From assembly GCF_900091475.1 (NCBI RefSeq), contig NZ_FMIB01000002.1, forward strand, positions 4,898,001 to 4,962,000: 64,000 nt of DNA, in the 5' to 3' direction. Every line of letters starts with the position of its first letter. The first letter of the stretch is position 1. Made by a program: the position numbers and the translations under genes. Of this stretch, positions 46,562 to 52,724 are shown in pieces. The notes beneath the pieces were generated by a model. It was given only the letters and a program-made list of their open reading frames with translations. It was not told the origin of the DNA and did not search any database. This DNA comes from Micromonospora chersina. Its GTDB lineage: Bacteria > Actinomycetota > Actinomycetes > Mycobacteriales > Micromonosporaceae.

Positions 46562-48172
46562 ATGGGTGCAGCGGTCAGGAACGGCGCGCAGCTGCTCGGT
46601 GAGCGGTACCGGCTGGTCGAGCAGCTCGGCGCGGGGGGCATGTCGGTCGTCTGGCGCGGCTACGACGAGGTGCTCGGCAGGCAGGTGGCGATCAAGGTGC
46701 TCGCCTCTCGGCTGGCGAGCGACAAGGCGTTCCGGCATCGGATCCGGATCGAGGCGCAGGCCGCCGCGCGGCTCTGCCACCCCAACATCACCAACGTGTA
46801 CGACTACGGGGAGTCCGAGCAGGTCGGCCTGACGGTCCCGTACGTGGTGATGGAGCTGGTCGACGGCGGGCCGTTGAGCAGCCGGCTCGGCCGGGGCGGG
46901 CAGCTGCCCTGGCGGGAGGCGGTGACGATCGGCGCGGAGGTGGCGTCGGCGCTGGCCACCGCGCACGCCCGGGGCGTGGTGCACCGGGACGTGACCCCCG
47001 GCAACGTCATGCTCACCTCGACCGGGGTGAAGGTCGTCGACTTCGGTATCTCGGCGCTGGTGGGGGAGAGCGAGAAGGGCCCGGACGGGGCGCTGCTCGG
47101 CACGCCCGCCTACCTGGCTCCGGAGCGGCTGGACAACGGCCAGGTCTCCCCGGCCACCGACGTCTACGCGGTCGGCCTGCTGCTCTACCGGATGCTCACC
47201 GGCCGGCTGCCCTGGCAGGCCAGCACCACCACCCAGATGCTCCGCGCCCACATGTACAACGAGCCGGACCCGATGCCCCCGGTGGTGGGCCTCCCCGACG
47301 AGGTCGCCGAGCTGGTCCGGCGCTGCCTGGCGAAGCGCCCCGAGGACCGCCCGGCCACCGCCGAGGTGGCCCGTACGCTCGCCGAGGCCGCCGGGATCGC
47401 GGCGATCGTGCCGGTCTCCCCGGCGCTCGGCCAGTTCGACCCGGCGCTCATGGAGAACGCGGGCACCACCATCCTGCCCTGGTCCACGGCCACCGACGCG
47501 CTGCCCTTCTCGGCCCTGCGCACCCGTACCCGCCGGGCCGCCGCCCGCCGGCGCAAGGTGGAGGCCGGGGTGGCCGCCGCCGGCCTCATCGCGGTCACCG
47601 CGACGCTGTGGGGGATGACCTCGAAGAGCCCGGCCAGCGGTGGGGTCGAGCCGACGGAGGCCCGGATGGGGCTGCCCGAGCCGATTCCCTGTGCCGTCGA
47701 CTACGCGCTCCGCCGCGACTCCGGCAAGGACTTCACCGCGGACCTGACCCTCACCAACACCGGCACCCGCGAGCTGCGCGACTGGACCATGAGCTTCACC
47801 TTCCCCGGCAAGCAGACCGTCGGCACGGCCCAGCCGGCGGTACGCCAGCAGGGCAGCACGGTGCAGGTCCAGGCGCCGGCCACCGAGGCCGCGCTGGCCC
47901 CGGGCGCCTCGAAGAAGGTCTCGCTGACCGGCAGCTACACCGGGAGCAACCCCCTGCCGGTGCAGTTCAAGGTCGGGGACAGCACCTGCGACGTGCAGGT
48001 GTCCGGCGTGGCCGGCTCGGTGCCGACGACGACGCCGCCGACCACCAGGCCGCCGGCCAAGGTGCCCGCCAAGCCGCCCGCCAAGACCGCCACGAAGAGC
48101 GGCACCGCCGGCCGGGCCAAGCCCGACAAGGCCGGCAAGGGCAAGGAGGGCGGCAAGGGAAAAGGCAGGTAG
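46562..48172 (+). CDS. membrane Ser/Thr protein kinase with extracellular CBM2-like domain
   Basis: From the ATG at 46562 the protein has 536 residues (a GTG at 46526 would add 12). The kinase domain (about residues 14-280) has the glycine loop LGAGGMSVV, Lys45 in VAIKVL, Asp143 in HRDVTPGN and Asp160 in VDFGIS; the usual catalytic-loop Lys is Thr145. A membrane helix (about 334-352) leads to an extracellular CBM2-like domain (about 376-480, Cys378 and Cys477 as the likely disulfide) and a Thr/Pro then Lys/Gly-rich tail. It may sense cell wall or extracellular polysaccharide. The 3' end contains a -1 frameshift heptamer; shifting would add a further Lys/Gly-rich tail to 48219. Confidence 0.9.
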   Translation: MGAAVRNGAQLLGERYRLVEQLGAGGMSVVWRGYDEVLGRQVAIKVLASRLASDKAFRHRIRIEAQAAARLCHPNITNVYDYGESEQVGLTVPYVVMELVDGGPLSSRLGRGGQLPWREAVTIGAEVASALATAHARGVVHRDVTPGNVMLTSTGVKVVDFGISALVGESEKGPDGALLGTPAYLAPERLDNGQVSPATDVYAVGLLLYRMLTGRLPWQASTTTQMLRAHMYNEPDPMPPVVGLPDEVAELVRRCLAKRPEDRPATAEVARTLAEAAGIAAIVPVSPALGQFDPALMENAGTTILPWSTATDALPFSALRTRTRRAAARRRKVEAGVAAAGLIAVTATLWGMTSKSPASGGVEPTEARMGLPEPIPCAVDYALRRDSGKDFTADLTLTNTGTRELRDWTMSFTFPGKQTVGTAQPAVRQQGSTVQVQAPATEAALAPGASKKVSLTGSYTGSNPLPVQFKVGDSTCDVQVSGVAGSVPTTTPPTTRPPAKVPAKPPAKTATKSGTAGRAKPDKAGKGKEGGKGKGR

Positions 48173-48219
48173 ACCGGCCGAAGGGGGGTGGGCACGGCGA
48201 TAAGGGCAAGAAGAAGTGA
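48144..48219 (+). other. candidate -1 programmed frameshift site and extension ORF
   Basis: The heptamer GGGAAAA (48157-48163) is phased as G GGA AAA in the kinase frame, the canonical X XXY YYZ form. AGGAGG (48144-48149) lies 7 bases upstream, where Shine-Dalgarno-like stimulators act in dnaX. After a -1 slip, reading continues as RQVDRPKGGGHGDKGKKK to a TGA at 48217-48219, matching the Lys/Gly-rich tail before it. An indel or sequencing error gives the same picture. Confidence 0.5.
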
Positions 48220-48222
48220 CGG

Positions 48223-48891
48223 TCAGCCCAGCCCGGCGAACTGCTGCACCCGGGCGATCGCGCCTTCCACGATGAGCACGCTGTCCGGCTGGAGGACGGT
48301 GTCCGGGCCGGTGTAGTGGAACGGCTCGCCGGGGGGCTTCGCGCCGATGACCCTCACCCCGTACCGGTCGGTGGGGGTCACCTCGCGCAGCGGCCGGCCG
48401 ACAAGCGACGCGGGCACCCGGACCTTGGCGATGGCGAAGTCGTCGTCGAACTCGATGAAGTCGAGCATCCGGCTGACGATCAGGTGCGCTACCCGTTCGC
48501 CGGTCTCCGCCTCCGGGAAGATGACGTGGTGCGCGCCCACGGACGTGAGGATCTTCGCGTGCTTCTCCGAGGTGGCCCGCGCCCAGATCTGCGAGATGCC
48601 CAGCTCGGTCAGCGCCAGCACGGTGAGCACGCTCGCCTCGACCGACTTGCCGATGGCGACCACCACCCGCCGGAAGTCCGCCACACCCACCTGCCGCAGC
48701 ACGTTCTCCTCGGTGGTGTCCGCCTGCACCACCCGGTCCAGCCGGGACGCCCAGCGCTGCACCCGGTCCTGCTCGTGGTCGATGGCGAGCACGTCCTGGT
48801 CGAGTTGCAGCAGCGAGCCGGCGAGCCGGGAACCGAACCGGCCCAGGCCGATCACCACGACGCTGTTGTCGTCCGTCCTCCTAGCCGACAA
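48223..48891 (-). CDS. TrkA/KtrA-type potassium channel regulatory subunit (RCK)
   Basis: The 222-residue protein has an RCK-N Rossmann domain (VVVIGLGRFGSRLAGSL, AIDHEQDRVQRW, VVQADTTEENVLR) that binds NAD(H) or ATP/ADP and an RCK-C domain (about residues 145-220, ending VLIVEGAIARVQQF). It gates the TrkH/KtrB subunit encoded just upstream. The best start is a TTG at 48891, located 8 bases after a GGAGGAG inside the end of the channel gene, so the two genes overlap by 11 bases. It converges with the kinase gene. Confidence 0.92.
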   Translation of the reverse strand: MSARRTDDNSVVVIGLGRFGSRLAGSLLQLDQDVLAIDHEQDRVQRWASRLDRVVQADTTEENVLRQVGVADFRRVVVAIGKSVEASVLTVLALTELGISQIWARATSEKHAKILTSVGAHHVIFPEAETGERVAHLIVSRMLDFIEFDDDFAIAKVRVPASLVGRPLREVTPTDRYGVRVIGAKPPGEPFHYTGPDTVLQPDSVLIVEGAIARVQQFAGLG

Positions 48892-51551: not shown

Positions 51552-52724
51552 ATGAGAATTACCTCTGCGCCGAGTAGGCGGGCGAGCATCGGAGCGCGGG
51601 TGGCCGCCCTCGGGGTGCTGGCCGGCGCACTGCTGCTGGGTGGCACGCCGGCCCTGGCCGCCACGACGATCAGCATCGATCCGGACGACGTGCCGACGAC
51701 GGCGGCGGACGCTCCCCAGTTCTGCTATCCGGGCGGCGGGCCCTTCCCGGACGAGGAGACCTGGGTGTTCGACCTGTCCGGCGACCCGGAGACCAGTGGC
51801 GTCTTCCAGTCGTTGTCGACGACGTTCCGCACGCCCGGCGGCACCGTCACGCGGCCGATCCCCGGCTCGCCGAACAGTGAGATCGTCGACTTCGAGGGTG
51901 TGAGCCGGGCCTTCATCCGGCTGCCGGCCCATTGGACGCTCACCGCCGCCACCGCGGTGATCTCCGGGACGGCCGAGAACTTCGTGCTCGCCCACACCTG
52001 CGCCGCCTCGGGCGATCCGGGGGACCCTGGCGACCCCGGGGATCCAGGTGACCCCGGCGACCCGGGCGACCCGGGCGATCCAGGTGACCCGGGCGATCCG
52101 GGCGACCCCGGCTACCCGGGTTACCCCGGGCACCCTGGCTACCCCGGGGACCCGCAGGTCAGCCTGTCGATCGACAAGAAGGCCCGGGTCGAGTCGGACT
52201 GCCGCGAGCGGTGTGCGAACGACGGCTACGCGGCCGAGGGCGACAGGATCTTCTACACCTACCGGGTGGCCAACACCGGAACCGCGCGGATCACCGACGT
52301 CGAGGTCGACGACCCGACCGCCGGGTACGTGGTCTGCAACAACACCACGCTGGCGCCGGGCACCAGCACGGACTGCCACGCCGTCCGTCCCCACGAGGTG
52401 GACTGGCGCGACGTCAAGAACGGCAAGGTGGAGAACACCGCCGTCGCCACCGGCCGGTACCGCTACCGGACCGTGGTCTCCGACCCGGTCACCGTCACGG
52501 TCTGCATCCGGGACGGCAAGTTCGACCACCGCAAGGACGGCAAGGACGACAAGGGCGGCTGGGACGACAAGGGTGGCTGGAGCGGCAAGGGCGGCAAGCC
52601 CGAGTTGCCCGTCACGGGTGACAGCGTCGCCCAGACCTCCTACCTCGGTGGCGGCCTGCTGGCGGCCGGCGGTCTCCTGATCGGGCTCAGCCGGGTGCGC
52701 CGGAAGGCACGCCTCCAGCCCTGA
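51552..52724 (+). CDS. LPVTG-anchored surface protein with collagen-like Gly-Asp-Pro repeats
   Basis: The 390-residue protein has a signal peptide (about residues 1-36, LAGALLLGGTPALA) and an N-terminal domain (about 37-150, with Cys58 and Cys149). Residues 154-201 are 16 Gly-X-Pro triplets, 11 of them consecutive Gly-Asp-Pro. A DUF11-like beta domain (about 203-312, IFYTYRVANTGTARITDVEV), a KDGKDDKGGWDDKGGW tail, the sorting signal LPVTG, a membrane helix and a basic end (RVRRKARLQP) follow. A sortase probably links it to the wall; no sortase gene is nearby. The Gly-Asp-Pro run may be a stiff stalk or collagen-like trimer. Function is unknown. Confidence 0.85.
   Translation: MRITSAPSRRASIGARVAALGVLAGALLLGGTPALAATTISIDPDDVPTTAADAPQFCYPGGGPFPDEETWVFDLSGDPETSGVFQSLSTTFRTPGGTVTRPIPGSPNSEIVDFEGVSRAFIRLPAHWTLTAATAVISGTAENFVLAHTCAASGDPGDPGDPGDPGDPGDPGDPGDPGDPGDPGDPGYPGYPGHPGYPGDPQVSLSIDKKARVESDCRERCANDGYAAEGDRIFYTYRVANTGTARITDVEVDDPTAGYVVCNNTTLAPGTSTDCHAVRPHEVDWRDVKNGKVENTAVATGRYRYRTVVSDPVTVTVCIRDGKFDHRKDGKDDKGGWDDKGGWSGKGGKPELPVTGDSVAQTSYLGGGLLAAGGLLIGLSRVRRKARLQP
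52011..52154. repeat. in-frame 9-bp tandem repeats coding Gly-X-Pro
   Basis: Sixteen 9-base units (GGN GAY CCN and GGN TAC/CAC CCN) lie in frame. Synonymous third-position changes differ between units, so selection has kept the protein repeat while the DNA has drifted. Copy number may vary between strains. Confidence 0.95.

Follow-up and report, generated by a model that had tools for sequence, protein, structure and literature searches.

A Probable Programmed -1 Frameshift, Conserved in Micromonospora, at the End of a Ser/Thr Sensor Kinase Gene

Introduction

Does a Ser/Thr protein kinase gene of Micromonospora chersina give rise to one product or to two? The question is raised by the window, as we call the whole stretch of 64,000 nucleotides analyzed here, in which the kinase reading frame ends two codons after a G GGA AAA heptamer and the -1 frame runs on beyond the stop. 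An earlier note on this DNA had put forward a programmed -1 frameshift at this point, and the comparison of orthologues supports that candidate: a conserved -1 programmed ribosomal frameshift at the end of the gene is, judged from sequence, very likely. It would show that the extracellular end of a kinase can be diversified at the level of translation in an actinobacterium of high GC content, a setting in which slippery codons rich in A are few and stand out for that reason.

Materials and Methods

The sample comprises the best 80 of 217 orthologue loci, 140 loci from further genomes of the genus, and the window, giving 221 loci of which 152 are distinct. The 140 were obtained from 150 other genomes of the genus (best E ≤ 1.1e-170), the remaining 10, without an equally strong match, being left out. 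Among the best 80 of the 217 loci the closest orthologues, for example that of M. fulviviridis, are 95% identical in their best segment. TrkA homology, the downstream landmark, lies on the opposite strand in 143 of the 152 distinct loci and on the same strand in none of these 143. A tree of 151 distinct orthologues was built with FastTree from the kinase and CBM2 part; L072, which contains runs of N, was left off although it carries the heptamer and the tail.

A tail was scored where the -1 frame stops after 8-30 codons, counted from the codon overlapping the 0-frame stop, where Lys, Arg, His, and Gly (K+R+H+G) make up at least half of its residues, and where it ends before the TrkA homology; this rule was fixed after the first orthologue tails had been inspected. 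One orthologue with GGA AAA ten codons before the stop (L054) was scored as lacking the pair. tRNA genes were sought with ARAGORN on stretches covering 55 of the genome's 56 tRNA matches.

Results and Discussion

Anatomy of the Site

The gene encodes a kinase with a Pro/Lys/Gly-rich C-terminal end (table 1), and both this end and the CBM_2 domain presumably lie outside the cell. The heptamer has the X XXY YYZ form in the 0 frame, and the -1 frame entered from it closes just short of the end of the convergent gene. The positions given earlier for AGGAGG, its 7-base spacing, the heptamer, the TAG, and the 18-codon -1 frame with its end all proved exact. Elsewhere in the window, an ORF at 51552-52724 (+) has a long GDP repeat, and its LPVTG-like motif precedes a hydrophobic stretch and a basic end, an arrangement resembling that of sortase-anchored, collagen-like surface proteins.

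Table 1. Features of the kinase locus (positions in the window unless given as residues).
Feature	Position	Strand	Remarks
Ser/Thr protein kinase gene	46562..48172	+	ORF, start ATG 46562; 536 aa in 0 frame; stop TAG 48170-48172
Pkinase domain	residues 16-270 of 536-aa kinase		E 1.6e-47
Likely membrane helix	47558..47617	+	residues 333-352; hydrophobic stretch chosen by eye, between Pkinase and CBM_2
CBM_2 domain	47690..47989	+	residues 377-476; PF00553, E 1e-13
AGGAGG, Shine-Dalgarno-like	48144..48149	+	7 bases 5' of heptamer
Slippery heptamer G GGA AAA (GGGAAAA)	48157..48163	+	in kinase 0 frame; two more codons, then TAG 48170-48172
-1 frame tail RQVDRPKGGGHGDKGKKK	48163..48219	+	18 open codons; stop TGA 48217-48219
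Convergent TrkA-type gene	48223..48891	-	PF02254 and PF02080; downstream landmark for orthology

Joint Occurrence of Heptamer and Tail

GGA AAA occurs in frame near the stop in 84 of the 151 distinct orthologues, with AAA as the second to fifth last codon. A Lys/Gly/His-rich -1 tail lies beyond the stop in 81 of these 84 versus 3 of the 67 orthologues lacking the pair, so that 81 have both, 64 neither, 3 the pair only, and 3 the tail only. The earlier note had looked to orthologues for conservation of the heptamer, of both frames, and of AGGAGG; the heptamer and both frames are kept together in this way, but the exact AGGAGG is found in only 12 of the 81 species. Where the pair stands without a tail, the tail has been lost (L024), its stop has been lost so that it runs on (L152), or the contig ends (L039); the tails without a pair are short relics beside a mutated heptamer (L036 and L174) and one unrelated sequence (L086). 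L172, a relative of the two relics, falls outside the tail rule. In many heptamer-less orthologues, the -1 frame either closes after a few codons or continues over the convergent gene.

Across 11 independent contrasts on the tree, repeated over 200 random pairings, typically 10 point the same way, none the opposite way, and 1 shows no difference (median p 0.002, range 0.001-0.02; one opposite contrast in a few of the 200 pairings), indicating that the signal and the -1 frame are conserved jointly. When gains are costed at two or three times losses, the reconstruction places a single gain at the base of 139 tips and counts 13 losses, and the history over which the trait was retained amounts to about 6.4 substitutions per site; equal costs give 14 changes, 5 of them gains. 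On the one-gain reading, the genus offers a natural comparative experiment, with many retained copies and 13 losses.

Outside the genus, GGA AAA within 12 codons of the stop was found in none of 22 loci from the same family (12 of the 22 with TrkA homology nearby), and L084, L086, L087, and L088 have no such pair either.

Coding Character of the -1 Tail

The 81 tails are composed of Gly (38%), Lys (27%), Pro (8%), His (6%), and Arg (6%) with little else, as in VTKGPRGHRK or VDRPKGGGHGGKGKKK, and the part past the 0-frame stop spans 10-27 codons. Their base composition over the three -1 codon positions (A.25/.36/.06, T.00/.01/.15) matches that of the in-frame Lys/Gly stretch (A.27/.34/.03, T.02/.00/.20) and is unlike that of the same place in 61 tail-less species (A.22/.13/.12, T.11/.11/.14). 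The mean share of K+R+H+G past the stop is 0.77 in the -1 frame versus 0.46 and 0.40 in the other two frames, although the tail rule itself demands 0.5.

Among 29 close pairs, synonymous to nonsynonymous differences stand at 51:77 in the -1 frame and at 29:113 and 34:101 in the other two. Both a protein-guided and a frame-blind nucleotide alignment show the coding pattern; since the former leans towards the frame used, the latter is the fairer comparison. In it, 23 of 25 gaps have lengths divisible by 3, and, with positions out of codon register excluded, the differences over the codon positions number 35, 56, and 69. Ungapped pairs of equal length and at most 16% divergence have no codon-position bias (107, 118, and 122 differences; 36 synonymous, 156 nonsynonymous), in a count that takes in misaligned low-complexity tails and more distant pairs. 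The tails, their composition, and their gaps support an open -1 frame under coding constraint beyond the stop; the ungapped count is negative. The tail evolves loosely, much like the low-complexity stretch before it (51:77 versus 59:91, compared with 1382:596 for the kinase and CBM2 part), and constraint on its exact residues appears weak.

Counted after Gly-Lys, the 0-frame end has a mean of 2 residues and a net charge of +0.6, the -1 end 18 residues and +5.2. The -1 end is the more positive in all 81 species, a result partly built into the tail rule. A separate feature of the family is an acidic run (at least five Asp or Glu in the last eight residues, e.g. DDDDDDD), which ends 17 of the 67 heptamer-less orthologues (including L019, L043, L048, L055, L060, L064, L075, and L138) and none of the 84 with the heptamer.

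Flanking Bases, Codon Use, and tRNA Genes

Because the 84 orthologues were chosen for GGA AAA, that selection leaves free only the flanking bases and the link to the tail. Immediately before GGA every one of the 84 has a G, although seven different codons supply it (AAG, CCG, TCG, GAG, GGG, CAG, and TTG). This is most telling for CCG and TCG, since CCC and TCC are common alternatives, and AAG, GAG, and CAG are simply the usual codons. After AAA comes G in 81 orthologues and A in the other 3. Elsewhere in these genes Lys is encoded by AAG 1,590 times and by AAA 48 times, and only 15 of 626 other Gly-Lys pairs in the distinct orthologues are written GGA AAA. In L042, L045, and L136, the site is longer, reading GGA AAA AAA G, and includes A AAA AAA as well.

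One tRNA-Gly(UCC), one tRNA-Lys(UUU), and two tRNA-Lys(CUU) genes were found. The CUU tRNA would mostly read AAG and would fit AAA badly after a slip, so AAA would be the sensible codon here. We infer from the tRNA genes that AAA may be preferred over AAG at this site, unlike in E. coli, where motifs with AAG are described as the best at slippery sites in the part of PMC4066793 that deals with them.

In 8 of the 81 species a -1 stop lies directly 5' of the heptamer, and from AAA to the 0-frame stop there are only 1 to 4 codons, so in those eight a shift would have to take place at the heptamer itself or no more than a few codons further on.

Candidate Stimulators

Most species without the exact AGGAGG carry other Shine-Dalgarno (SD)-like sequences at the same place. 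By the rule of PMC4066793, an SD-like motif lies upstream of the heptamer in 73 of 81 species; four control windows have one in 7 to 37 of 81, and among species without the heptamer the figure is 18 of 63. Octamers that end 4-7 bases before the heptamer, the closest ones included in the analysis, pair most strongly with the anti-SD, and the best octamer ending 4-16 bases upstream reaches -6 kcal/mol in 70 of 81 species versus 48 of 324 control windows. However, synonymous resampling of the same amino acids already yields an expected 67.1 of 81 against the 73 observed, and SD strength hardly exceeds the resampled values (median z -0.5; P ≤ 0.05 in 3 of 81; p 0.93 for the window), so that selection on the SD itself is unsupported. 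GGT accounts for 117 of 229 Gly codons within the five-codon stretch that precedes the heptamer's neighbor codon, versus 541 of 4,393 further upstream. Any part played by the SD-like sequence in slippage would be that of a putative stimulator.

Downstream structure is a frequent stimulator, yet a dispensable one in bacteria according to the introduction of PMC4066793. A general downstream hairpin is not supported by our hairpin scan of the 81 species (mean z -0.4 to -0.5; z -0.15 for the 62 downstream bases of the window). Strong hairpins are confined to subclades. In 10 of the 81 species (L029, L031, L033, L034, L059, L066, L074, L085, L165, and L182), a perfect 8-bp hairpin, GGTGACCA/TGGTCACC, begins 7 bases past the heptamer; the 0-frame TGA falls within its 5' arm except in L066, and the Gly-His of the -1 tail comes from its 3' arm. 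Several more species have other 7-pair stems downstream.

The Same Heptamer Elsewhere in the Genome

The pattern GGGAAAAG is rare, with 34 sites on both strands of the 6.68 Mb genome, and is neither enriched nor depleted, since the pattern read backwards has 35. No convincing second element was seen among the other 33 sites, four of which (L329, L316, L322, and L330) were assessed solely from their open frame and GC3. In L329 (contig positions 4530072-4531879, site 901-908), G GGA AAA lies in frame within a gene-like ORF (290 codons open, GC3 0.88), 12 codons ahead of its stop, and the -1 frame ends about 3 codons past that stop. In L316, L322, and L330, the site lies 3 to 7 codons before the stop of low-GC3 open frames that are probably not genes.

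Alternative Explanations

A restart of translation could yield the tail as a separate tiny peptide if ribosomes began again on a GTG overlapping the stop (GTGA), and the overlapping -1 codon is indeed GTG in 46 of 81 species, ATG in 2, and TTG in 1. In the 29 with a TAG stop, however, that codon is GTA, CTA, or ATA, and in 30, the window among them, the -1 frame contains no ATG, GTG, or TTG from the heptamer to the end of the tail; restart is therefore not general. Nor does it have any need of G GGA AAA, yet heptamer and tail are lost together, and we consider it very unlikely.

Less likely again is that the DNA after the stop is kept untranslated, for instance as a terminator or hairpin. The 8-bp hairpin described above would suit this reading in the 10 species that have it, but the same scan finds no stem of at least 5 pairs in about half of the 81, and over the set the composition by codon position and the gaps in threes speak for translation, with the heptamer left unexplained.

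Slippage by RNA polymerase on the run of A, giving mixed mRNAs, is a fainter prospect still. Seven A stand in a row in L042, L045, and L136, but 81 of 84 orthologues have only four before a G, and the three preceding G would not be needed. The bacterial transcriptional slippage treated in the relevant part of PMC5009743 takes place on runs of 9 As or Ts.

An indel or sequencing error, by which a single real frame has been broken by a base missing or extra in the assembly, would account for the -1 tail looking like a continuation of the preceding Lys/Gly-rich stretch, a likeness correctly observed in the earlier note, but as a general explanation it is contradicted, and almost certainly wrong, given the same two frames and heptamer in 81 distinct orthologues from many assemblies, a 0-frame stop that varies (TGA in 52 of 81, TAG in 29), and the absence, by a motif check, of the whole tail from the 0-frame end of the 67 heptamer-less rows. 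In that check, any of twelve tail motifs occurred in the last 40 residues of the 0 frame in 5 of the 67 rows, as short chance-like matches, versus 57 of the 81 real -1 tails.

Stop readthrough was also considered and rejected on the K+R+H+G share past the stop, 0.46 in the 0 frame versus 0.77 in the -1 frame.

Proposed Mechanism and Meaning

Under a programmed -1 frameshift, we predict that tRNA-Gly(UCC) on GGA and tRNA-Lys(UUU) on AAA slip back by one base to GGG and AAA. The fraction of ribosomes that slipped would miss the 0-frame stop two codons on and add 18 residues, and the remainder would terminate at TAG. The outcome would be two kinases differing only at their presumably extracellular C-terminus, one short and one with a longer, strongly basic Gly/Lys/His-rich end. 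Such a basic and flexible tail next to the CBM2 domain might perhaps bind anionic cell-wall polymers, which is a guess.

Slippage might in addition act as a regulated dial, varying with growth state and so setting the ratio of the two sensor kinases. This suggestion stems from the rarity of AAA as a codon here and the single tRNA-Lys(UUU) gene found; we regard it as a speculative and rather doubtful extension. Were it true, engagement of the CBM2 kinase with the cell wall or with a polysaccharide signal would be altered, and some lineages without the dial would bear an acidic end instead.

Comparison with Known Systems

To our knowledge, few chromosomal bacterial genes use -1 frameshifting. 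One of them, E. coli dnaX, has the slippery sequence A AAA AAG followed by a strong stem-loop, and the shift gives the shorter product. The kinase gene resembles it in an X XXY YYZ heptamer ending in Lys codons, an SD-like sequence upstream, and two predicted products from one gene, but its heptamer is G GGA AAA, it has no general stem-loop, and the shift would lengthen the product by a short tail. In Bacillus subtilis, a -1 shift near the stop of the chromosomal gene cdd likewise gives a short C-terminal extension, but cdd encodes an enzyme and has another slippery site.

The heptamer itself is familiar from insertion sequences. PMC4066793 calls G GGA AAA inefficient in E. coli in its introduction, and in the parts of the article bearing on this motif it falls outside the 18 E. 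coli motifs that are underrepresented and shift at more than 0.10% without a stimulator, and is ranked with the motifs of higher efficiency on which insertion sequences rely. There, as far as the same parts of PMC4066793 describe it, the shift leads to a transposase fusion, whereas here it would lead to a C-terminal tail.

Kinases have also appeared in frameshift surveys. GeneTack cluster 752989859 (“Kinase/Phosphatase”) is listed in Table 2 of PMC3711429 as bacterial with predicted +1 programmed frameshifting, and 67% of its 105 genes, which come from 23 genera, have an A/T run of at least 7 close to the site. On that table's description, the cluster, with its +1 shift and A/T runs, is set apart from the kinase studied here, with a -1 shift and four A. 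Three histidine-kinase frameshift clusters in the same table are ascribed to phase variation. Searches of open-licence papers turned up no -1 frameshift in a bacterial Ser/Thr sensor kinase, the predicted +1 “Kinase/Phosphatase” cluster being the nearest entry, and this gene and outcome are absent from the covered portions of the main text of PMC3711429, PMC5009743, PMC10274946, and PMC4066793. The mechanism is a known one, of which the kinase gene is very probably a new example, on a sensor kinase.
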